NCBI GenBank assembly: GCA_021787365.1 | Contig: JAJYMB010000076.1 | Span: 1-64,000, forward strand | Direction of reading: 5' to 3' | DNA from: Actinomycetes bacterium | GTDB taxonomy: Bacteria > Actinomycetota > Acidimicrobiia > Acidimicrobiales > Palsa-688 | Length of the DNA stretch: 64,000 nucleotides | In this document: positions 5,688 through 27,177 of the stretch, in pieces | Layout: every line of letters starts with the position of its first letter | How positions within the stretch are numbered: position 1 is the stretch's first letter | Position numbers and translations under genes: made by a program | Notes under the pieces: model-generated | The model's input: only the letters and a program-made list of their open reading frames with translations | Told to the model about the DNA's origin: nothing | Databases searched by the model: none

Positions 5688-6164
5688 TCACGGCTCTACC
5701 AGCTCCGTTGTCCAGTTCACCTGCTGGATCTGAGCGTCGAGCTCCCTCGTGCGGCGTGCAGCCTCGGCTGCCCGCTGGCGCAAGTCGCTGATGTCAAGGT
5801 CCGTGACGACCTTGAGCTCAGAGCGGGTCGCCCGCATCATGATGCCGCGCTGGCCAGAGCCAGATGCGGCGTCCGCCGCACTGGTGAGGAGCGAATAGCG
5901 CAGGCGCAGAACGTCCCTTTCGGCCAGCGCGTCGGTAACTGTCCGGCCGTCGGGCATGAGGGTGCCAGCGTTCGTCTGGTTGATCTGGCGGACAAGCCTC
6001 TCCAGCTCGTCGAGCACCGCGGAACAGGCAGCGATTAGGTCGTTGGCGTTCTCCGGAGGCTGCTCACCCTCTTGGTAGCGGGCGCTCGCTGCGATGCGCG
6101 CCCGCAGCTGTTCGAACGTCCGGTTACGGTCTGCGCGCAGCAGCAACGCTTCGGCCAACTTCAT
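5688..6164 (-). CDS. DIP1984 family protein
   Basis: A 158-residue protein starting at the ATG at 6164, which follows a strong GAGGAGGAGG ribosome binding site; the open frame extends further upstream but the similarity and the site fix this start. It begins MKLAEALLLRADRNRTFEQL, includes a segment QEGEQPPENANDLI and ends with ELDAQIQQVNWTTELVE. These are hallmarks of the DIP1984 family (about 150-160 aa), a largely helical, coiled-coil-rich group whose function has not been established. It is the only clearly intact gene between the AbiE-like pair and the phosphoesterase, and its upstream region shares an 11-base element with the palindrome array near 2.7 kb. Confidence 0.85.
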   Translation of the reverse strand: MKLAEALLLRADRNRTFEQLRARIAASARYQEGEQPPENANDLIAACSAVLDELERLVRQINQTNAGTLMPDGRTVTDALAERDVLRLRYSLLTSAADAASGSGQRGIMMRATRSELKVVTDLDISDLRQRAAEAARRTRELDAQIQQVNWTTELVEP

Positions 6165-15891: not shown

Positions 15892-16221
15892 TCAACGGGC
15901 GCGAGCGAAACGCTGCACTGCCTCGAGCAGTTCACGCCCCTTTTCGGCAGCCACTTCCTCGTCGCCCGAGGCGAGCGCATGCGCCACGCAGTGCTTCACG
16001 TGGTCCTCGAGGATCTTGAACCCGACCGCCTCGAGGGCCGTGGAGACGGCCGAGATCTGCGTCAGGATATCGATGCAGTAGCGGTCGTCGGCGATCATCT
16101 TCTCGATGCCGCGCACCTGTCCTTCGATGCGGTGCATGCGCTTGGAGATCGCCTCTTTGTCCCCTTCGGCGATATAGCCGTACAAGGGGGCGCCAGGGGC
16201 TTGCGTAGAGGTGCTGGTCAC
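15892..16221 (-). CDS. csoR: Copper-sensing repressor CsoR
   Basis: A 109-residue four-helix repressor of the CsoR/RcnR family. The Cu(I) ligands are all present with the spacing of Mycobacterium CsoR: C49 (DDRYCIDIL), H74 and C78 ([10 protein letters not shown]), i.e. 25 and 4 residues apart. It begins after a short disordered N-terminus ([14 protein letters not shown] is the conserved first helix). Its ATG overlaps the copA stop by four bases, so it is the last gene of a coupled copZ-copA-csoR operon. Copper-bound CsoR would release the operators found upstream of copZ, giving negative autoregulation. Confidence 0.92.
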
Positions 16222-18434
16222 GATGCCTCCCTGATTGGGCGGAACCGCCGGAGCCTGAGCGAGTTCGTGACGACGAACACGCTGGAACCGGCCATGGCGG
16301 CGGCGGCGATTATGGGGTTGACGATGCCCGCTATGGCGAGGGGGATAGCAGCCACGTTGTAGGCGAAAGCCCAGAAGAGATTGCCCTTTATGGTACCGAG
16401 CGTGCGGCGGGCAAGGCGGATGGCGTCGGCCGCGGCGCGCAGGTCGCCTGAGACGAGCGTCAGGTCGGAGGCCTCGATGGCCACGTCCGTGCCGGTCCCG
16501 ATGGAGAGGCCAAGGTCGGCTTGGGCCAAGGCCGGGGCGTCGTTCACCCCGTCGCCCACCATGGCCACGACCTCTCCGGCCTCCTGTAAGCGGCGCACCT
16601 CGGCCGCCTTGCCCTCGGGCAGGACGCCGGAGAGCACCCGATCTATGCCGACGTCGGCGGCGACCGCCAGGGCCGTGCGCTCGTTGTCCCCCGTGAGCAG
16701 CACGGGCGTGAGCCCAAGGGCCCTCAGCTTCGAAACGGCAACGCGGCTGGAGGGCTTCAGCTGGTCGGCCAGGGCTACGAGCCCGAGCACGGTGCCGTCG
16801 GCGGCCACCGCAACCACGGTGTTGCCTTTCTCCTCCAAGCGCCCGGCCTCGGTGGCCAAGTCCAAAGGCAGGACCACGCCCTCTCCTGCAAGCAGCGAGG
16901 GGCGGCCGACCACGACGTCCTTGCCCTCCACCTTGGCGCCTACGCCGAGGCCGGCCCGGTTGCTAAAGCCCGTCGCCGAGGGCAGAGCGCCTAGGCGCTT
17001 GCGGCCGTGCTCGGCGATGGCGCGGGCGATCGGGTGCTCACTGGCGTCCTCGGCGGCGCTGGCCAGGCGCAGCAGTTCCTCTTTGGCTACCCCCACGGCG
17101 GGTACGAGATCAGCCACTTGCATCCTGCCCTCGGTCAGGGTGCCGGTCTTGTCGAGCAGGACGGTCGTGACCCGGCGGGTCTGTTCCAAGACTTCGGGCC
17201 CTTTGATCACGATGCCGAGCTGGGCTCCCCGGCCAGTGCCCACCATGAGCGCCGTAGGGGTGGCAAGGCCGAGGGCGCAAGGGCAGGCGATGACGACCAC
17301 GGCAACGGCCGTGCTGAAAGCGGCCGCCGTGCCCGCCGCGCCGAACAGGAGCCACCCGGCCAGGGTGAGGAGGGAAAGGCCGATCACCACCGGGACGAAC
17401 ACGCCCGAGACCCGGTCGGCGAGGCGCTGGACCTGGGCCTTGCCCGCCTGGGCTTGGGCCACGAGGCGTGCCACTTGGGCCAAGGCGGTCTCCGAGCCCA
17501 CTTTGGTCGCCCGCACGACGAGGCGCCCCGAGGTATTGACGGTGGCCCCCGCCACTTCGTCGCCCGGTCCCACCTCGACCGGGACGGGCTCGCCGGTGAG
17601 CATCGACTGGTCGACGGCAGAAGTGCCTTCGGTGACGACCCCGTCGGTGGCTACCTTCTCGCCCGGCCGGACGACGAACAGGTCCCCAGCCCTCAGGGCC
17701 TCCACCGGGACCAGCACCTCGGCGCCGTCCCTCAGCACGTGCGCCTCCTTGGCCCCGAGCTCGAGCAAGGCCCGGACAGCCTCGCCCGAGCGCCGCTTGG
17801 CCCGCGCCTCCAAGTACCGGCCGAGCAGGATGAGCGCCGTGATCAGGGTGGCGGTGTCGAAATAGACCCCCTGTCCCATGCCCGACACCAAGACCACGAC
17901 CGACCACACCCAGGCGGCGAGGGTCCCGAGGGAGATGAGGGTGTCCATGGTGGCCACCCCGTGGCGGGCGTTGAGGGCCGCGGCGCGGTGGAACGGCCAG
18001 CCGGCATAAGCGACCACCGGGGTGGCCAAGGCGAACGAAGCCCACTCCCAGCCCCCGAAGCGGGTGGCCGCCGACCAAGCCCACACGGCCACGGGCACTG
18101 ACACGCCGGCAGCCAGCAGCAAACGGAGAAGATAAGGACGAGCCGGGTCTTCCTCCCCAGGCCCCGCCTTGGGCAGTGCCGCCTCGTAGCCGATCGAGGC
18201 GACGGCGCCCACGAGGTCGTCGAGAGAAATGAGGCCGGGGTCGAAACTGACCGCCGCCTGCTCGCTGGCAAAGTTGACCGTGGCGGCCACGCCCTCCAGC
18301 TTGTTGAGGCGCTTCTCGACCCGGACCGCGCACGAGGCGCAGGTCATGCCCGAGATCGCGAGGTCGACGTGGCCTTTGGCCTCGTCGAGCCCTTTTCTTT
18401 GAGCGGCAGGCCGCTTTTCGGCTGCGACGGCCAT
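16218..18434 (-). CDS. copA: Copper-exporting P1B-type ATPase CopA
   Basis: A 738-residue Cu(I) efflux ATPase. One N-terminal heavy-metal-associated domain carries ISGMTCASC (C32, C35). Membrane helices follow, then the actuator motif [10 protein letters not shown], the transmembrane metal site [14 protein letters not shown] (CPC), the phosphorylation motif DKTGTLTEG, and the hinge [18 protein letters not shown]. These are diagnostic of CopA. Its start overlaps the copZ stop (TGATG), and its stop overlaps the csoR start. Length is normal for a one-HMA CopA. Expected role: pumping cytoplasmic Cu(I) outward, loaded by CopZ. Confidence 0.95.
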
Positions 18435-18637
18435 CAGACCGCCTCGTACCCTGCCTCTTCGATGGCGGCCCGGAGCGCCCCGTCGTCGAGGCTCTCGCCC
18501 GTCACCTTGACGAGCTTGGTCTCGAGGTCGACGTCCACACCGGCGACGCCGGCCACGGCGCTGAGCTCAGTTGTGACGGCGTGCTTGCAGTGGTCGCAGG
18601 TCATCCCGGGGACCGTGTAGCTGATCGTCTGGCTCAT
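18434..18637 (-). CDS. copZ: Copper chaperone CopZ
   Basis: A 67-residue single heavy-metal-associated domain with [15 protein letters not shown] (C14, C17), the Cu(I)-binding CxxC, and the ferredoxin-like strand pattern [12 protein letters not shown]. It has a strong AGGAAGGAGAG ribosome binding site and is the first gene of the copper operon, coupled to copA by a one-base overlap. Role: delivery of Cu(I) to CopA and probably to CsoR. Confidence 0.92.
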
Positions 18638-18651
18638 CTCTCTCCTTCCTA

Positions 18652-18680
18652 ACTATACCCTATTAGGGTATAGTGACCAA
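18652..18680 (-). promoter_or_regulatory. copZ promoter with embedded CsoR operator
   Basis: On the minus strand TTGGTC (18680-18675) and TATAGT (18657-18652) are 17 bases apart. The perfect inverted repeat CTATACCCT-ATT-AGGGTATAG at 18653-18673 fills the spacer and the -10, so bound repressor would block polymerase. The core TACCC-N5-GGGTA matches the GC-flanked symmetry known for CsoR operators. Confidence 0.8.
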
Positions 18681-18693
18681 TGATAACACCGAA

Positions 18694-18708
18694 TACCCGG
18701 AAGGGGTA
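18694..18708. promoter_or_regulatory. Second CsoR-type box
   Basis: TACCC-GGAAG-GGGTA has the same arms and 5-base spacing as the operator in the copZ promoter. It lies upstream of the divergent cupredoxin gene and just before TACAGT (18707-18712), a possible plus-strand -10. Confidence 0.6.
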
Positions 18709-18806
18709 CAGTACCTATGGCCGTCGCGGTCCGGGCCGGAGGGCCCCTACCGTCAGCGACACGAACCCTCCTCGTTCACTTACGACGCAGGGCCATCGTG
18801 CCTCGG

Positions 18807-18821
18807 TACCCCTGGGGGGTA
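18807..18821. promoter_or_regulatory. Third CsoR-type box
   Basis: TACCC-CTGGG-GGGTA, third copy of the same 15-base symmetry, about 220 bases before the cupredoxin start and on its leader side. Confidence 0.5.
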
Positions 18822-19040
18822 GGGCTTAGGTCACCCGCGGAAGGGCCGGACGGCCCTACCGCCGAGCCCCCCACGGCGGGCACGGTGGACCGTAACGGCG
18901 CAGGGGCCGCAACCACCAGGGAAAGGTCGACTGAGGGAAAGTGAGCCGGGACAGAGTGGGCGGCTTTCCACCCAACGCGGCTACCACCAGCGGGCGGCGC
19001 ATCCTCCGGCAGGCCCAGACAGACGAAAGGAAAGACGACG

Positions 19041-19925
19041 GTGAACCGTAACCGCCTTGTAGCCCTCATGAGTGCCGCCGTGCTCGGCGCCAGCGGCCTC
19101 GGTGCCGGGCTGGCCCTGAGCCTGGGGCGAGGCCCCGGCGCCCTTGGCCAGGCGCTGAAGCCAGCCGGCCCGAACGCGTCCTACGCCTATTACCTGAGCC
19201 TGGCCCAGCACTTCTCGGGCGAGCCAGGGTCGTCTTACAGGCCCATGATGGGTGGCTCGGGCTACGGGCCGATGATGGGGGGCGGTTACCCTTGGGCGAG
19301 CCGATCTGGTTATGGCTGGATGATGGGGGGCAGCGGCGCGCCGGGCTGGATGATCGGCGGCTCACTACCCGGTTCGGTCACACGGGGCAACGACAATATG
19401 GGTGAAGTGATGGGCAAGCTCTTCGCCAATGCCCCAGGCCCGAGGGTAAGCCCGGCCGAAGCGGCCAAGCTCGGCGACGAGGCGCCCAGAGGTGCCACTG
19501 TGGACCGGTCCACCAACACCGTCACCTTCTCGGGCCACAAGGCCGACCTCGCTGTGCTCGCCAGCCCCTCGATGCCGGCGGAGAACTTCAAGCTGGCCGG
19601 GTTGACGGACCCGGCGATCGTCGTACCCGAGGGCGCCCAGGTCCAGGTTGAGCTGGTGAACGCCGACGACGACATGGCCCACGGCTTCGTCGTGTCGGCG
19701 CGAGGCGCCGGCAACTCCTGGATGCCGATGATGAGCGCACCGCCGGCGTTCTCGGGGTCTGCCCTTTGGTTCCTGGGCGAGAAAACCTCAGCGGGGATGC
19801 ACGTTGGGACGCTCACCTTCAGCGCTTCGACGCCCGGCACCTACACCTACCTCTGCCCCGTCCCGGGGCACGCCCAAGAGGGCATGGAGGGGAGCTTCGT
19901 GGTAAAAGGTGCTCCCGCTTCGTGA
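19041..19925 (+). CDS. Exported Met/Gly-rich cupredoxin (sulfocyanin/plastocyanin-like)
   Basis: A 294-residue protein from a GTG at 19041 preceded by GAAAGGAAAG. Residues 1-27 are a signal or anchor helix (LVALMSAAVLGASGLGAGLA). Residues 68-107 are a Met/Gly/Tyr-rich stretch with four repeats around PMMGG (e.g. GYGPMMGGGY, GYGWMMGGSG, GWMIGG). The C-terminal half is a cupredoxin fold with all type 1 copper ligands: H214 (DDMAHGF), C272, H277 and M282 (YLCPVPGHAQEGM). Sulfocyanin-type proteins act in respiratory electron transfer. The Met-rich segment could also bind Cu(I) outside the cell. Divergence from copZ-copA-csoR and two CsoR-type boxes in its upstream region suggest copper-controlled expression (inference). 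Family is secure, role uncertain. Confidence 0.85.
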   Translation: MNRNRLVALMSAAVLGASGLGAGLALSLGRGPGALGQALKPAGPNASYAYYLSLAQHFSGEPGSSYRPMMGGSGYGPMMGGGYPWASRSGYGWMMGGSGAPGWMIGGSLPGSVTRGNDNMGEVMGKLFANAPGPRVSPAEAAKLGDEAPRGATVDRSTNTVTFSGHKADLAVLASPSMPAENFKLAGLTDPAIVVPEGAQVQVELVNADDDMAHGFVVSARGAGNSWMPMMSAPPAFSGSALWFLGEKTSAGMHVGTLTFSASTPGTYTYLCPVPGHAQEGMEGSFVVKGAPAS

Positions 19926-20030: not shown

Positions 20031-23000
20031 GTGCTGCACCTCCACCGCTCGGAGCGGGCCGACATGCTGGTCGGGGTGCTCGGTGACGTGCTCGCCGAGC
20101 CGCTCGACGACCCGATGGCGCGCGAGGTTGTGGCCGTGCCGACTCGCGGTGTGGAGCGCTGGCTCACCCAGCGCCTTTCCCACCGCCTCGGGGCCGCCCA
20201 AGACGCGGCCGACGGGGTGTGCGCGAACATCGACTGGCCCTTCCCCGGCGCCCTGGTGGAGATGGCCACCGCGGCCGCTGCGGGGATGCCTGTCGGCCCG
20301 GACTGGCTGGACGTCGCCGGCGGGGACCCCTGGAGCCCTGGGCGGCTGGTCTGGCCCCTGCTCCAAGTGGTGGACGAGAGCCTGCAAGAGGAGTTCCTGC
20401 GCCCGCTCACCGAGCACCTGCGGGCATCCTGCACGGCGCCGGCGGGCCAGGCGCCGCGCCGGTTCGCTACTGTGCGCCACATCGCGGACCTGTACGACCA
20501 CTACGCCGTGCACCGTCCCGAGATGCTGCTCGGCTGGCTCGACGGCGAGGTGGCGGGGCCCTTAGGAGCGCATGCAGGTCCCGAGGCAGACGACGCCTCC
20601 TGGCAGGCGGAGCTGTGGCGCAGGCTCCGGCGTCGAGTCGGGGTGCCGAGCCTCGCCGAGCGCCTCGCGGCAGCGCCGGCCGCGCTCGCTGCCAGGCCCG
20701 AAATGCTCCCTCTCCCCAAGCGTCTCTCTGTGTTCGGACTGACCCGCCTGCCTGCCAGCCACCTCCGAGTCCTCGACGCCATCGCGACCCACCGGGACGT
20801 CCACCTCTTATTGCTGCAACCGTCGGCCAAGCTCTGGGAGAAAGTGGAAGGCTGGTGCGGCTCGCGCCAGGCCCTGGCCGAGGGGCCGATGGCACGCCGC
20901 GACGACCCCACCATTCCCCTCCCACAAAACCCCCTCCTTCGGAGCTGGGGCCGCGACGCCCGCGAGATGCAGGTGGTACTGGCGTCCCAGGGCCAGGGCG
21001 GCGGAAAGCACGTCCCGGTGCCCGATGCCACCGGGCCGCCGACGCTCCTCCAGCTCATCCAAAGAGATATCCGCGCCGACCGCGAACCACCCAGCCCTCC
21101 GCCCCGGGGCGCCGATGACAAACGGCCCCTGATCTCGAGCGCGGACGATAGCGTCCAGGTGCACTCGTGCCACGGTCGCGCTCGCCAGGTCGAAGTGGTA
21201 CGGGAAGCGGTGCTCCATCTTCTGGTTGGCGACCCGACCCTAGAGCCGAGGGACGTGATCGTCATGTGCCCGGATATCGAGCTGTTCGCACCGCTCGTGA
21301 CCGCCGCGTTCGGGACGGCCTCGCCCGAGCGTGGGCCGGAGCTGAGGGCCAAGTTGGCCGACCGCTCGTTACGCCAGACCAACCCGCTCCTGGCCGTCGC
21401 CGGCCACCTCCTCGACCTGGCCGGCAGTAGGGCTACCGCACCCCAGCTGCTCGACTTCGCCTCGCGCGAACCGGTGTCCCGGCGCTTCGGCTTGGGAGAG
21501 GAGGACCTCTCCCGCATCGAAGAATGGGTCGTCCGCACCGGCACGCGCTGGGGTTTCGACGACGCCCACAGAGAAAACTGGCACCTCGGCCGCTTGGGCG
21601 GGTTGGCGACATGGCAAAGGGCCCTGGACCGGCTCCTTCTCGGCGTCGCCATGGGCGGCTCGGACCAACCGTTCGGGGGCGTGCTCCCGCTCGACTACGT
21701 GGCGAGCACCGACATCGCTTTGGCCGGCCGGTTCGCCGAGCTGGTGGCCCGCCTCCGGGCCACCTTGGAGCAACTGAGCGCTCCGCGGCCGGCCGCTTCC
21801 TGGGCGGCCGCTCTCGTCGAGGGCACCGAGAAGCTGGCCTGCGCCGAGCGGGGCGAGCAGTGGCAGCACGACCAGCTCCGGCGCGTGCTCACCGAGGTGG
21901 CACAGCTCGCGACACCGACCTCCGGGCCGTTGCTGGACCTTGCCGAAGCGCGTGCGCTGCTCGCGGACAGCCTGCGCGGCAGGCCGACGCGCGCCAACTT
22001 CCGCACCGGCGACATGACGATCTGCACCTTGGTCCCCATGCGTTCGGTCCCCCACCGGGTCGTGTGCCTCCTCGGCCTGGACGACGGGCTCTTCCCGAGG
22101 CCCGCCCGCCAAGACGGCGACAACCTCTTGCTGGCGGACCCCCGGGTGGGGGAGCGCGACGAGCCGAGCGAGGACCGCCAGCTCCTGCTCGACGCCCTGC
22201 TCGCGGCCAAAGACCACCTGGTGATCACCTACGAGGGCCGTGACCAGCGCCTCAACCGCAAGGTCCCGCCCGCGGTCCCGGTCGCCGAGCTGCTCGACGT
22301 CATCGACAGGACCGTGCGCCACCCCGACCCGAGCAGGCCGGCGCGCGAGGTGGTGATGGTCGAGCACCCCCTCCAGGCTTTCGACCCGCGCAACTACACG
22401 CCGGGCGGCCTCAGAGGGGCAGGACCGTGGCGCTTCGACGGCCTCAACTTGGAGGGGGCGCGTTCGCTGGCCGGTGAGAGGCACTCCAAGGTGCGGTTCC
22501 TGAGCTCCCCGTTGCCACCGGTCTCCCAGAGGATGCTGCCACTGCGTTCGCTGGTCCAGTTCCTCGACTTCCCCGTCCGGGCCTTCTTGCGAGAGCGGGT
22601 CGGGTATTACACCCCCAGGGAAACCGAGCGCCTCTCCGACGCTATCCCTCTCGACCTCGACGCCCTGGAAGGGTGGGCGCTCGGCGACCGGCTCCTGTCG
22701 TCGCTGTTCGCCGGGGCCAGCACCGAAGAGGCCCTCGCGGCCGAGAGGGGCCGAGGGCTCCTTCCGCTCGGCCAGCTCGGAGAAGACGCACTGCGAAGCA
22801 CGCTCCAGGAAGTGGCCTCGCTCTTCGTGGCCGCCCAGGGCATGGAAGCCTTTTCCGAGCCGGCGGTGCCCGTCGAAGTCAACGTGGAGCTACCCGACGG
22901 CCGCTGGCTCGTCGGCACCGTGCCCGGCGTGCGAAGGGGCACCATCGCCGCCTGCACTTTCTCCAAGCTGCGGCCCAAACAACGGCTCCAGGCCTGGGCG

Positions 23001-23507
23001 CACCTGTTGGCCCTCTCCGCCGCCCACCCTGAGCTCGCCCCATCGTCGGTCACCGTCGGGAGGTCGGAGAGCAGCAAGCGAGGCGCGCCCCGCACCTGCA
23101 CGCAGTGGCTCGCCCCGCTCGGGGGAGACGAGCCAAGCTTGCAGCGTGCGGCTCTCGAGAAGTTGTGGGTGCTGGTCGACCTCTACGACCGTGGCATGAG
23201 GGAGCCGCTCCCCATTTACTGCGCAACGTCGGCAGCGTGGGCCGAGGCAGCTCGCGCCAAGGGGGGCCCGCGGGCGGCGGAGGATGCCTGGGGGACCAAG
23301 CCCAACCGTGGCTGGGGCGAGGCGTTCAAGCCGGAGCACGTCCTCGTCCTCGGCGAAGCCCTCGCCTTTCAAAAGGTGCTGGAAGATACCCCCCGGCGCG
23401 ACGAGGAGGGCCCTGGTTGGCCGATGCAGGAAAAGAGCCGCTTTGGCCGTCTTGCGGTGAGGCTGTGGGGCCCGGTCCTCGACCACGAAAAGCTGGAGGT
23501 CGGCTAA
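20031..23507 (+). CDS. recC: Exodeoxyribonuclease V gamma subunit RecC
   Basis: A 1158-residue RecC-like subunit starting at a GTG (20031). It has the inactivated helicase-like N-terminal domains (LHLHRSERADMLVGVLGDVL; EVVAVPTRGVERWLTQRLS; GVCANIDWPFPGALV; RHIADLYDHYAVHRPEMLLGW split over residues 135-175) and the Chi-scanning and C-terminal inactive nuclease parts (CTLVPMRSVPHRVVCLLGLD near residue 665, SLVQFLDFPVRAFLRERVGY near 845). Lengths and order match RecC of the RecBCD complex, which resects double-strand ends. recB follows after 43 bases, and recD overlaps recB, so the three form one operon. Many actinobacteria use AdnAB instead, so RecBCD is a lineage marker. Confidence 0.92.
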   Translation: MLHLHRSERADMLVGVLGDVLAEPLDDPMAREVVAVPTRGVERWLTQRLSHRLGAAQDAADGVCANIDWPFPGALVEMATAAAAGMPVGPDWLDVAGGDPWSPGRLVWPLLQVVDESLQEEFLRPLTEHLRASCTAPAGQAPRRFATVRHIADLYDHYAVHRPEMLLGWLDGEVAGPLGAHAGPEADDASWQAELWRRLRRRVGVPSLAERLAAAPAALAARPEMLPLPKRLSVFGLTRLPASHLRVLDAIATHRDVHLLLLQPSAKLWEKVEGWCGSRQALAEGPMARRDDPTIPLPQNPLLRSWGRDAREMQVVLASQGQGGGKHVPVPDATGPPTLLQLIQRDIRADREPPSPPPRGADDKRPLISSADDSVQVHSCHGRARQVEVVREAVLHLLVGDPTLEPRDVIVMCPDIELFAPLVTAAFGTASPERGPELRAKLADRSLRQTNPLLAVAGHLLDLAGSRATAPQLLDFASREPVSRRFGLGEEDLSRIEEWVVRTGTRWGFDDAHRENWHLGRLGGLATWQRALDRLLLGVAMGGSDQPFGGVLPLDYVASTDIALAGRFAELVARLRATLEQLSAPRPAASWAAALVEGTEKLACAERGEQWQHDQLRRVLTEVAQLATPTSGPLLDLAEARALLADSLRGRPTRANFRTGDMTICTLVPMRSVPHRVVCLLGLDDGLFPRPARQDGDNLLLADPRVGERDEPSEDRQLLLDALLAAKDHLVITYEGRDQRLNRKVPPAVPVAELLDVIDRTVRHPDPSRPAREVVMVEHPLQAFDPRNYTPGGLRGAGPWRFDGLNLEGARSLAGERHSKVRFLSSPLPPVSQRMLPLRSLVQFLDFPVRAFLRERVGYYTPRETERLSDAIPLDLDALEGWALGDRLLSSLFAGASTEEALAAERGRGLLPLGQLGEDALRSTLQEVASLFVAAQGMEAFSEPAVPVEVNVELPDGRWLVGTVPGVRRGTIAACTFSKLRPKQRLQAWAHLLALSAAHPELAPSSVTVGRSESSKRGAPRTCTQWLAPLGGDEPSLQRAALEKLWVLVDLYDRGMREPLPIYCATSAAWAEAARAKGGPRAAEDAWGTKPNRGWGEAFKPEHVLVLGEALAFQKVLEDTPRRDEEGPGWPMQEKSRFGRLAVRLWGPVLDHEKLEVG

Positions 23508-23550
23508 ACATGCCGGTGCAGCAGGCCCACGCCGAGGTCGGGCGGGCGAG

Positions 23551-26500
23551 GTGAGCGCAGCCGAGCTGGGCACCTGGGGCGGTGCCCTGGCCAGCGAACC
23601 TGGTACGAGCACGCTCCAGTTCGACCTGTGCGGCCCTCTGCCTGGACCGGGGGTGACCGTGCTCGAGGCCAGCGCCGGCACGGGCAAAACCTACGCCGTC
23701 ACCGGGCTCATGACCCGTTTCGTGGCCGAAGGGGTGGCGCCGCTCCAGGAGATCCTGGCGGTCACTTTCACGCGCCTCGCCACCGGCGAGCTGAAGGACC
23801 GGGTGCGAGCGCGGCTCGTCTCGGCCGAGCTGGCGCTCGGGCGGTCCCTCGAAGCCGGCGGGCCACCCCCAAGTGACGACCCGGTCGCCGCCTTGCTCGC
23901 CTGCCCGGGCCCCGAGGGCGACGAGGTCCGGGCACGCCGGGCGCGCCTCGCCAGGGCGCTCGCCACCTTCGACAGCGCCACCATCACCACCACCCACGGC
24001 TTCTGCCACATGGTCCTCGGCGCCCTCGGCGTATGGGGAGAGGTCGCGCCGGGGGCGGTGTTGCTCGAGGACCCCCACGACCTGGCCGAGGAGGTGGTGG
24101 AAGACCTCTACGCGCGCTGGGTACGAGACAAGGGCCTCCTGCCCTTCAGCTTGAAGGCAGCTCTCGAAGTCGGCCTGGCTGCGGTGCGCAGCCCTGGCAC
24201 GGAGCTGGGCCCGGGCGCGGACAGGACCGATGAGTCACCTGCCGGGCTCCGCCGGCGCCTGGCCGATGCCACACGGTCTGAGGTGTCCCGGCGGTTGGTG
24301 GACGCGAACCTGCTGACTTACGACGGCATGCTCGTCCGCCTCGCCGACGCTCTGGACGACCCCGTCCGAGGCGCCGGCGCGCGCCGGCGCCTCGGGGAGC
24401 GCTACCGGGTGGTCCTGGTCGACGAGTTCCAGGACACAGACCTCGTGCAGTGGGACGTCGTTCGCCGGGCCTTCGCGTCCGGGGGCACCCACTTGGTGCT
24501 GATCGGAGACCCCAAACAGGCTGTTTACGCCTTCCGGGGAGCCGACGTGTACGCCTACCTGGCCGCTGCCAGCGCTGCCCCCCCGTCCAACCGCCTCACC
24601 CTCGAGCGCAATTGGCGCTCGGACGGCTGCCTAATGGCGGCGTGCGACGCCCTGTTCGGCCCATTGCAACTGGGCCACCAGGGGATCGTTTACCGACGGG
24701 CGGGGTTTCACTGCGCCCACCCGGGACCAGGTATCACCGGCGCACCCGTGGCAGAGCCCCTTCGGTTCCGCTGGCTCGACCGGCGTAGCCCGCCCCCGGG
24801 CTGCACCCTCACCGCATCGAAACCACTGGCGAAAAAGCGTGCTGTCAACTTGGTCGCCGAAGACCTGGCAGCCGACGTCGTGGCGCTGCTTTCCGCCGGT
24901 GCCGAGTTGCTGACCGGTGGCCTGGCCGGCGAGCGGGAGGGGGCCGGGCCGGGCGCCTTCCAGGACGACGGCTCGAGCGGCTCGGGTGGCTCGGGTGGCT
25001 CGGACGGCACGAGCGACGGCGTGCCCGCTCGGCGGAAGCTCGAGCCGCGCGACATAGCGGTCCTGGTGCGTACCAACGAGCAAGCCACCTTGGTGCAAGA
25101 ACAGCTTGCCGGTGCCGGCGTGCCAGCCGTGGTCTCGGGCACCCAAAATGTCCTGGCCACTCCCGCTGCACGCGACTGGCTGGCGCTCCTAGACGCTCTT
25201 CAGCAGCCCGCGTCGCGCTCGCTCGCGGCGGCGGCGGCACTTTCGAGTTTCTTCGGCCGGCACGCGGAGCAACTGGCGAGCGGAGACGAAAGGGTCTGGG
25301 AAGCCGTCCACGACCGCCTCCACGACTGGGCCGGAGTGCTCCGCCGCCACGGGGTGGCGGCGCTGTTCGCGGAGGCCTCCGCCAGCGAGCAACTCCCCCA
25401 GCACCTGCTCGCCGAGTTGCAGGGCGAGAGGCGCCTGACCGACCTCGGCCACATAGCAGAGCTACTGCACGGCGAGGCGACCCGCTCGCAGCTAGGGCCG
25501 GCGGCGCTGCGGGCGTGGCTGGCCCGGCGGGCCGAGGAGGCCGGCACCGAGGGGAACGAGGAGGAGGAGCTGTGCCGGCGGCTCGACTCCGACAGGGCCG
25601 CGGTGCAGGTGCTCACGGTCCACCGGGCCAAGGGCCTCGAGTTCCCGGTTGTGTACTGCCCCTACCTGTGGGACGCCGGTCATCGGGGTACGAGCGGGAA
25701 GCCGGTGGCCTATCACGACCCGGAGGACTCCTTCCGGCGCAAGCTCGACGTCGGGGAAAGGGGGGACCCCGTCTACGACCAGCATTTCGCTCTTTCCCAA
25801 GAGGAGTCCCGCGGCGAGGACCTCCGCCAGATGTACGTGGCCCTCAGCCGGGCCAAGCACCAGCTCGTGTTGTGGTGGGTGCCTGCGACCGATTCGCAGC
25901 GCTCGGCCCTCGGCCGGGTGCTCGTGTGCCAGAGGGACGCCGACGGTGCCCTGGCGGCCCCCTACTCCAGCCCACCGCGCGACCTTGCGGTCGAGGCGGC
26001 ACTGGGGGGCGTGGCTGCGGGTGCCCCCGGTCTCGTGAGCATCGAGCAGATGGGCGCACGTCCTCCCGGTGCCTGGCGACCGGCCCAGAGCGCCCTCGGA
26101 CCGAGGGCGCTCCAGGCGATGCCGTTCAAGCGCGACCTCGACGTCTCCTGGCGGCGTTCCTCCTACAGCAGCATCATCTTCCAACCGCGCGCCGTCGGGG
26201 AAGAGCCGGTCGGGAGCGAACCAGAGGAGACGGGGACGAGCGACGAGCCGCCCGCGCCCGCCGCTGGCCACCGCGCCGCCGGCCAGGGCGAGCAGGACAC
26301 CGAGGCGCGCCTGCGCGCGGTGCTCTCGCCATGGGCGCCAGTACCTGCCGGCGCAGCCGTGGGCACCTTCGTCCACAGCGTCCTCCAAGGGGTCGATTTC
26401 TCGGCACCCGACCTAGCTGGCGCACTCGAGGAGGCCGTGGCAGCCCGCATCGGCACCTACCCCGGGGACACAGCCGACGCCGCTTCGATCGTCGCGGGCT

Positions 26501-27177
26501 TGCAGGCCACCGTCGAGACCTCTCTCGGCCCTCTGGCCGGCGGCGCCCGGCTTCGCGACATAAGTCGCGGGGACCGCCTGGACGAGCTCTCCTTCGAACT
26601 GCCCGTCGCGGGCGGTGACGAGCCCTTCGGGAAGGTACTGACGGCCGAGCTCGGCGAGGTCTTCTCCAGGCACGTGCCACCGGGCACACCTCTCGGCCCC
26701 TACGCAGCCGCCCTCCAAGGGCCGGCGCTCGAGACAACTCTTCGCGGTTACCTCACGGGGAGCCTGGACCTGGTTTTCCGCCTCGGGGCTGCAGCGGGGG
26801 ACCAAGGACCAGGGGGCGGGGCACGCTACTTCCTGGCTGACTACAAGACAAACTGGCTGGCGCCGCCGGGAGAGGCCCTCAGTGCCTGGCACTACCGGCC
26901 CTCGGCCTTGGAGCAGGAGATGCTGGAGGCGAACTACGCCCTCCAAGCCCTCCTGTACCTCGTGGCACTCCACCGCTACCTCCGGTGGCGACTGCCTGGG
27001 TACCAACCTGAGGCCCACCTCGGAGGGGTTCTCTACCTGTTCGTGCGGGGCATGGCCGGCCCGGGGACGCCCGTAACCGACAACGGCCAGCCCTGTGGGG
27101 TGTTCTCCTGGGACCCGCCGGCAGCCCTCGTACGCGAAGTCTCTGACTTGCTGGCAGCCGGGGGGGGCCGGCCATGA
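23551..27177 (+). CDS. recB: Exodeoxyribonuclease V beta subunit RecB
   Basis: A 1208-residue UvrD-type helicase-nuclease from a GTG at 23551. Walker A is LEASAGTGKTYAVTGLM (about 33-50), motif Ia follows in ILAVTFTRLAT, motif II is VVLVDEFQDTDLVQWDVV (about 287-305), and motif III/IV is HLVLIGDPKQAVYAFRGADV. Motif V/VI appears in VLTVHRAKGLEFPVVYCP and MYVALSRAKHQLVLWW. The C-terminal nuclease has GSLDLVFRL and FLADYKTNW, carrying the catalytic D and K. A Gly/Ser-rich linker (GSSGSGGSGGSDGTSDG) interrupts the helicase part near residue 473. Its last four bases overlap the recD start (ATGA). Confidence 0.93.
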   Translation: MSAAELGTWGGALASEPGTSTLQFDLCGPLPGPGVTVLEASAGTGKTYAVTGLMTRFVAEGVAPLQEILAVTFTRLATGELKDRVRARLVSAELALGRSLEAGGPPPSDDPVAALLACPGPEGDEVRARRARLARALATFDSATITTTHGFCHMVLGALGVWGEVAPGAVLLEDPHDLAEEVVEDLYARWVRDKGLLPFSLKAALEVGLAAVRSPGTELGPGADRTDESPAGLRRRLADATRSEVSRRLVDANLLTYDGMLVRLADALDDPVRGAGARRRLGERYRVVLVDEFQDTDLVQWDVVRRAFASGGTHLVLIGDPKQAVYAFRGADVYAYLAAASAAPPSNRLTLERNWRSDGCLMAACDALFGPLQLGHQGIVYRRAGFHCAHPGPGITGAPVAEPLRFRWLDRRSPPPGCTLTASKPLAKKRAVNLVAEDLAADVVALLSAGAELLTGGLAGEREGAGPGAFQDDGSSGSGGSGGSDGTSDGVPARRKLEPRDIAVLVRTNEQATLVQEQLAGAGVPAVVSGTQNVLATPAARDWLALLDALQQPASRSLAAAAALSSFFGRHAEQLASGDERVWEAVHDRLHDWAGVLRRHGVAALFAEASASEQLPQHLLAELQGERRLTDLGHIAELLHGEATRSQLGPAALRAWLARRAEEAGTEGNEEEELCRRLDSDRAAVQVLTVHRAKGLEFPVVYCPYLWDAGHRGTSGKPVAYHDPEDSFRRKLDVGERGDPVYDQHFALSQEESRGEDLRQMYVALSRAKHQLVLWWVPATDSQRSALGRVLVCQRDADGALAAPYSSPPRDLAVEAALGGVAAGAPGLVSIEQMGARPPGAWRPAQSALGPRALQAMPFKRDLDVSWRRSSYSSIIFQPRAVGEEPVGSEPEETGTSDEPPAPAAGHRAAGQGEQDTEARLRAVLSPWAPVPAGAAVGTFVHSVLQGVDFSAPDLAGALEEAVAARIGTYPGDTADAASIVAGLQATVETSLGPLAGGARLRDISRGDRLDELSFELPVAGGDEPFGKVLTAELGEVFSRHVPPGTPLGPYAAALQGPALETTLRGYLTGSLDLVFRLGAAAGDQGPGGGARYFLADYKTNWLAPPGEALSAWHYRPSALEQEMLEANYALQALLYLVALHRYLRWRLPGYQPEAHLGGVLYLFVRGMAGPGTPVTDNGQPCGVFSWDPPAALVREVSDLLAAGGGRP

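Follow-up and report, generated by a model that had tools for sequence, protein, structure and literature searches.

A predicted composite CsoR/DosR operator between a copper-efflux operon and a rusticyanin-like cupredoxin gene

Does copper alone set the expression of a copper-efflux operon and of the copper protein gene that diverges from it, or would a second signal be read at the same stretch of DNA? In Actinobacteria, copper sensing is generally treated as one circuit and the sensing of hypoxia or NO as another. The question is raised by a stretch of 64 kb, which we refer to as the window, where three copies of the inverted repeat TACCC-N5-GGGTA separate a minus-strand copZ-copA-csoR cluster from a plus-strand cupredoxin gene. 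The first-pass annotation proposed that, if CsoR binds all three copies, copper would induce export and an electron carrier together. The features concerned are the following:

15892..16221, minus strand: csoR, copper-sensing repressor, last gene of copZ-copA-csoR (Pfam PF02583, 2.5e-29)
16218..18434, minus strand: copA, copper-translocating P-type ATPase (TIGR01511, 559 bits versus a cut-off of 397)
18434..18637, minus strand: copZ, copper chaperone with an HMA domain (PF00403, 1.1e-16)
18652..18657, minus strand: −10 hexamer TATAGT of the copZ promoter, from a promoter scan; shares TA with box 1
18656..18670, no strand: box 1, exact TACCC-N5-GGGTA, putative CsoR type-2 operator of copZ
18694..18708, no strand: box 2, exact CsoR-type box, its right arm overlapped by a plus-strand TACAGT that is a possible −10
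18807..18821, no strand: box 3, exact CsoR-type box, left part of a predicted composite operator
19041..19925, plus strand: cupredoxin gene, GTG start at 19041, 294 aa (SoxE, 1.9e-5)

The three minus-strand genes overlap end to end as one operon, copA overlapping csoR by 4 bp. The closest solved relative of the encoded CsoR is Geobacillus CsoR (4m1p, 4.1e-24), to which it aligns at the Y-C...H..H-C positions that we take to be its copper ligands. The layout of the boxes is as the first-pass annotation had described it: arms and spacing are identical, the pattern being exact each time; box 1 overlaps the copZ promoter; and boxes 2 and 3 are both on the cupredoxin side of box 1, 347 and 234 bp before the start of that divergent gene. 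A promoter scan of 18400-19300 returned the copZ promoter as its only match and listed no plus-strand promoter; the TACAGT that overlaps box 2 may be a promoter element on that strand. A 75-aa ORF that starts just after box 2 (18717-18944) belongs to no family and is absent from the coding-score gene set, and was discarded.

These three are the only exact matches in the window, where 0.01 would be expected by chance, and none of 100 dinucleotide shuffles of the window held three boxes. Across the genome (4.56 Mb in 154 contigs) the pattern occurs at seven sites, versus two for the reversed pattern. Three of the four sites outside the window (L001, L006 and L007) each lie inside a long ORF and were set aside as chance; the fourth, on contig C75, is intergenic and adjoins a second csoR-like gene, csoR2. 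Exact boxes are found, then, at the copZ promoter (box 1), at csoR2 and deeper in the copZ-cupredoxin gap (boxes 2 and 3). At all three other copZ loci that we examined, a TAC-N9-GTA box stands shortly before copZ, exact in L093 and with one mismatch each in L049 and L052. The same TAC-N9-GTA repeat with inner G/C tracts is present in boxes 1, 2 and 3, and the type-2 consensus given for Streptomyces lividans CsoR is ATATACCCCTNAGGGGTATAT, with emphasis on its TAC-X9-GTA dyad (PMC3902906). The three boxes look like genuine CsoR sites in the form of this published type-2 operator, and their copper link is a well-supported prediction; box 1 is the predicted operator of the copZ-copA-csoR operon.

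Both CsoR-type proteins of the genome retain, by eye, C, H+25 and C+29, presumably the copper pattern of CsoR-type proteins; copper was therefore kept as the likely signal of csoR2, and CstR-like sensing was rejected. A CsoR-family protein can serve sulfur metabolism (PMC10318464), and CsoR and RicR have been reviewed together (PMC10961391).

The divergent gene encodes a protein with an N-terminal hydrophobic stretch, a Met-rich region and a C-terminal rusticyanin-like domain. It matches the rusticyanin model TIGR03095 at 3.4e-23 and 82.5 bits, below the curated cut-off of 146.7 bits, and a PDB search with it returned rusticyanin (1.3e-13). His214, Cys272, His277 and Met282 are invariant in eight aligned sequences, namely that of the window and seven homologues. 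An AlphaFold model, of low overall confidence (mean pLDDT 55), ranked rusticyanin first in a structure search (4e-11). The protein is thus predicted to adopt a rusticyanin-like cupredoxin fold with His, Cys, His and Met at the ligand positions. The label of a 'respiratory-type' copper protein goes further than a rusticyanin-like domain behind a Met-rich stretch with such a score can carry, and we dropped it. A CopI-type copper-buffering role would suit the protein as well; because the fold and ligand evidence fits either, we retain both electron carriage and copper buffering. Directly downstream on the same strand lie recC- and recB-like genes (window 20031-27177). The genome encodes two more distant rusticyanin-like cupredoxins on contigs C52 and C73 (L059 and L060), and their 1 kb upstream regions lack an exact box.

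The conservation of the boxes was assessed at homologues of the cupredoxin picked by protein similarity, with no motif used, and up to 1 kb of upstream sequence was inspected in 19 of them. These comprise 18 of the 29 rows of one protein search and one row of another; the 11 rows omitted are distant copies, fragments, the second piece of one gene and a contig-cut gene (G406:C614), and as far as their loci are covered by sequence, none carries an exact box at a distance of up to about 1.5 kb. An exact box precedes 9 of the 11 close homologues (at least 57% identity, the window counted as one), and for the two without it the sequence available before the gene is just 612 and 305 bp long. Of the eight distant homologues (at most 50% identity), none has an exact box in its upstream 1 kb. 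In the 17.5 kb of total upstream sequence of the 19 homologues, 0.003 boxes would be expected by chance. The idea that the boxes on the cupredoxin side are kept in relatives is thereby borne out for box 3. For box 2 it holds in part: the box is kept in L055, but this is the one sister locus found with the copZ-cupredoxin pair. A contig scan for relatives yielded only two. L055 keeps all three boxes and the dyads described below, with spacings of 37 and 79, versus 38 and 113 in the window.

Next to boxes 2 and 3 there are further inverted repeats:

18733..18746, no strand: DosR-like dyad GGGCCGGAGGGCCC, 24 nt after box 2, the whole match spanning 18694-18746
18822..18834, no strand: dyad 1, GGGCTTAGGTCAC, 13 bp, abutting box 3 and departing from the DosR/OsdR palindrome form
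18842..18857, no strand: dyad 2, AGGGCCGGACGGCCCT, with 2 mismatches of 16 to the OsdR consensus AGGGCCGATCGGCCCT

OsdR is the DosR orthologue of Streptomyces coelicolor, and the consensus is taken from its study (PMC5069765). A DosR/OsdR-type dyad, GGGNCNNNNGNCCC, thus follows both box 2 and box 3, at gaps of 24 and 21 nt, the palindrome being matched at 18733-18746 and 18843-18856. The proposal that CsoR binds all three boxes is consistent with their type-2 form; an operator of CsoR alone is not supported, since boxes 2 and 3 are parts of composites with DosR-like dyads. The DosR-type half is the main addition to a picture of plain CsoR boxes.

In composites of the box 3 kind, the order of elements is TACCC-N5-GGGTA, dyad 1 as GGGCC(A/T)T(N)GGTCAC or near it, 6-9 nt, and dyad 2 as (A)GGGNCNNATGGCCC(T) or near it. 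Many end with TACCC...GTAT, a second and mostly decayed CsoR box whose end overlaps a possible −10. A search for the composite pattern returned 16 places in 9 of 32 family genomes, versus none for the reversed control; the composite as written is absent from the other 23. The search pattern itself prescribes the box arms and some of dyad 1, and finding these unchanged across the alignment is no evidence; dyad 2 lies outside the pattern. The second CsoR box is exact in 2 of 18 composites (G406:C328 and one of G411:C46), giving two loci with an exact box at either end of the dyad pair, and it has one mismatch in two more.

The window holds two composites in tandem and, with the one on C75, there are three general-pattern matches in the genome, where the reversed control gave none. 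Another family genome, G289, also has two tandem composites, 83 bp apart. The box 3 composite of the window no longer has a right-hand CsoR box (5 mismatches); its dyad 1, which is 14 bp in the other aligned composites except that of L055, is one base short; and its dyad 2 is followed by CACGGC, versus TATGGC in L055, with no clear −10. The window copy may be weaker than its relatives: given the short dyad 1, the lost second box and CACGGC in place of a −10, transcription of the cupredoxin gene may instead start after box 2, with TACAGT as its −10, or be weaker.

By coding-score gene calls, the neighbours of the 16 family composites are mostly SHOCT/csoR, DoxX, cupredoxin or copZA genes. A SHOCT-like small membrane protein gene and csoR2 usually lie on one side, and cupredoxin, DoxX-like or CcdA-, TlpA- or glutaredoxin-like genes on the other; the families were tested on examples, where the SHOCT, DoxX and DsbD matches fall below the Pfam cut-offs. 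In G414 the composite precedes SHOCT-copZ-copA-csoR and lacks dyad 2. There are three exceptions to the usual arrangement: the composite of G303:C83 is flanked by ABC-transporter-like genes on one side and an unrelated gene on the other, some 3.5 kb from a copy of the cupredoxin; that of G303:C97 has a SHOCT-like gene as its only neighbour; and G406:C328 has lost csoR2. The second composite locus of the window's genome (L064, G000:C75:24000-36000, composite at 6055) adjoins SHOCT-like, csoR2, OmpR-type regulator and kinase genes. To the right of it is a DoxX-like frame that looks broken: the gene finder called no DoxX there, and the ORF starts like DoxX and then departs from it. Near the composites of L090 (2747-5525) and L092 (10447-12529), CcdA-like, TlpA-like and glutaredoxin-like genes stand in a row, joined in L090 by a DoxX-like gene; copper control of envelope thiol redox in the family is possible from these rows.

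We scored the DosR motif in 18 composites, that is, the 16 family places together with box 3 of the window and box 3 of L055, which are related sequences and not independent. The best match begins 20-23 nt past the box in 16 of them, and the summed score is 151, versus a mean of 118 over 1000 shuffles, the highest of which scored 128. Tested singly, 10 of the 18 reach p<0.05 and 8 do not; five are at chance level, namely G303_C83 and G414_C1, which are without dyad 2, G404 and both composites of G289. Within the window, a match to the OsdR consensus with at most 3 mismatches is not rare in itself (1 found, 1.24 expected), and for this reason the DosR case is built on the whole set of composites. 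The dyad 1 pattern GGGCCWTNNGTCMC is not enriched in the genome (7 sites versus 6 for the reversed pattern); being uninformative by itself, it was abandoned as a genome-wide motif. At loci that were not chosen by motif, 4 of 10 DosR-like sites are intergenic (p=0.11), a weak and non-significant enrichment.

The genome encodes a DosR orthologue on contig C86, its best match being M. tuberculosis DevR (3c3w, 1.1e-70), followed by VraR (8e-44). At E≤1e-50 an orthologue is present in 27 of 32 family genomes, 20 of which have DosR without the composite. Seven of the nine composite-bearing genomes have DosR, and no match was obtained in the other two, G406 (61% complete) and G409 (86%), which slightly lowered our confidence in the composite reading. 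Among nine Usp loci of the window's genome we found two distinct intergenic DosR-type sites, one at a Usp-Usp-Hsp20 cluster and the other before one more Usp gene. dosR is preceded by another gene, and a DosR-like dyad, GGGACATTAGGCCC, lies in the gap ahead of that gene (L113:142-155).

In wider sets of genomes, the general composite pattern occurs at 9 places in 7 of 395 genomes of the class and at 7 places in 4 of 396 genomes of the phylum, with one match for the reversed control in each; these counts include G494 and G762:C127 as matches to the pattern alone, and the matches in G066 and G174 look like chance. In another family of the order, related arrangements were recognised by eye: G307 has a related block before DoxX- and csoR2-like genes (its permease was identified by family search), and G348 has a fusion with no gap upstream of csoR- and permease-like genes. 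L144 (4757-4791), from another family of the class, combines a CsoR-like box with a DosR-like dyad that begins a few nt further on; the pair lies upstream of a short-chain dehydrogenase-like gene, and no copper gene was seen nearby.

In a Mycobacterium-like genus, a pattern with a gap of 0-4 nt between box and dyad was found in 11 of 78 genomes (control 0), and the gap is zero in all 11; in the wider family of that genus the zero-gap form occurs in 2 of 151 genomes, both of which belong to the genus. At the one locus tested, the kinase gene beside the site matches M. tuberculosis PknE (2.1e-160). A gene for a small His/Met-rich membrane protein adjoins the zero-gap site at 7 of the 11 places (6 of the 10 loci read, plus G509, L139), and L146, L148, L150 and L155 have other or unclear neighbours. 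L154, one of the loci with the His/Met-rich gene, also has a P-type ATPase-like gene by eye (3-833) near its fused site at 1501. In L150 (1501-1528) the DosR-type site GGGACTAAAGTCC directly adjoins a CsoR-type box, with a gene that by eye resembles those of FAD-dependent oxidoreductases near it.

Several other explanations of the composites were weighed. In the model of the first-pass annotation, the three boxes are plain CsoR sites through which copper alone induces export and cupredoxin, and the dyads belong elsewhere or to nothing. The fit of the boxes to the CsoR consensus, the conservation of the box with close cupredoxin homologues, the position of the cupredoxin gene beside copZ-copA-csoR and the missing base of dyad 1 in the window all agree with it. 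It is nonetheless unlikely in view of the DosR-type dyad, whose spacing from the box is constant in 16 of 18 composites (10 of 18 singly significant) and which follows the box with no gap in a distant genus. Alternatively, the dyads might bind a regulator other than DosR, such as the OmpR-type response regulator found beside csoR2 in several relatives, and copper would then be joined to that system. A response regulator and kinase indeed follow csoR2 in L064, where their families were tested, and the same pair was recognised by similar sequence in L045, L090 and L092; moreover, two composite-bearing genomes, though incomplete, have no DosR match. However, the GGGNCNNNNGNCCC palindromes agree with the published OsdR form, gene calling returned no regulator/kinase pair next to the composite of the window, L049, L052 or L093, and dyads of DosR type, for example GGGACTAAAGTCC, are among the Mycobacterium-like cases; together these points make this account rather improbable.

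The inverted repeat around dyads 1 and 2 could also act as RNA, as the leader hairpin of a riboswitch or attenuator, instead of being bound by protein as DNA. The segments GGGTAGGGCC...GGCCCTACCC are able to pair, and 82.2% of cells pair in the correct register, but counted pairs gave no covariation (0.088 versus 0.098 for shuffles, with 414 of 500 shuffles as high), RNAalifold does not pick the hairpin, and a search of Rfam gave a single hit that falls far short of the gathering threshold; we rejected the hairpin as very improbable. Spread of the composite near copper genes as a small mobile or repetitive element would account for the tandem copies in G289 and the window, but is scarcely credible with at most 3 exact matches per genome, most of which fall in regulatory gaps next to genes for copper or thiol redox.

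We therefore favour, with a probability of roughly 0.57, a composite CsoR/DosR operator at which copper would lift repression and DosR would activate. From what the sequence shows, namely conserved boxes, dyads, genes for both regulators and the ligand positions of the cupredoxin, we infer the following order of binding and release. The intergenic region would comprise one ordinary CsoR operator, box 1 at the copZ promoter, and two tandem composites, that of box 2 with one DosR-type dyad and that of box 3 with two. Without copper, CsoR would occupy box 1 and shut copZ-copA-csoR, and would also sit on boxes 2 and 3. Since an abutting box and dyad could hardly be bound together, CsoR on box 3, next to the DosR-like sites, would keep DosR off the cupredoxin side. 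Copper would free CsoR from the DNA, turning on the export operon and opening the cupredoxin promoter to DosR. DosR would activate the gene once the DosR sensor kinase had signalled low oxygen, NO or a reduced electron-transport chain, and the task of the cupredoxin in that state would be either to retain copper outside the membrane or to act as an electron carrier. This arrangement suggests that the cupredoxin gene may respond to copper and to oxygen or NO together. The centre of dyad 2 lies near −32 in L051 (counted by hand from an inferred −10), which is not the usual position of an activator and counts against a simple activator model.

Each half of the proposed operator has known counterparts. 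The copZA and csoR operators of S. lividans share TACCC-N5-GGGTA, the TAC-N9-GTA dyad and the position upstream of copZA and csoR, whereas in the window two of the three boxes are followed by a DosR-like dyad and the cupredoxin gene lies on the far side (PMC3902906). The DosR/DevR and OsdR regulons share the AGGGCCGATCGGCCCT-type palindrome, an orthologous regulator and a Usp/Hsp20 locus with such a site; the window dyads, unlike theirs, adjoin a copper-repressor box, and the word 'copper' is absent from the main text of that study (PMC5069765). Among copper proteins, CopI of Rubrivivax gelatinosus is under a regulator other than that of the window. Like the window protein, it is of the blue-copper type and encoded in a cluster with copA; it is periplasmic and copper-induced. 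CopI is plastocyanin-like, whereas the window protein is rusticyanin-like with a Met-rich stretch, and the two are likened by description alone (PMC7558416). In Sulfobacillus thermotolerans, a rusticyanin gene lies in a plasmid-like region with copZ, copA and csoR, and the authors do not exclude a part for it in copper resistance; the accessible text describes no operator or co-regulation (PMC6803676).

A link between the two regulators has been seen in M. tuberculosis, where 44 of 48 DosR-regulon genes are induced in a csoR mutant. The authors favour an indirect cause through copper imbalance and call the mechanism unresolved (PMC4801387); here, both predicted sites lie on one operator. A hypoxia-dependent copper response has been described in M. 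bovis (PMC9048740), and joint sensing of copper and NO by another system has been reported (PMC8131098). Among the matches listed in our literature search, judged by titles and the starts of abstracts, we found no joint CsoR/DosR operator.

More tentatively, and at somewhat less than even odds, CsoR and DosR may share one fused operator in two distant actinobacterial groups, the window's order and the Mycobacterium-like genus; it would be a direct coincidence switch for copper and low oxygen or NO that drives envelope copper and thiol-redox genes. A conserved CsoR box abutting a DosR-type site makes a direct link between copper and DosR testable by simple binding and reporter assays. It also offers a reading of the rusticyanin-like protein and of the DoxX-, CcdA-, TlpA- and glutaredoxin-like genes that adjoin CsoR boxes in this lineage. 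If the switch is real, the cross-talk between copper and dormancy in mycobacteria would be partly wired in the DNA.
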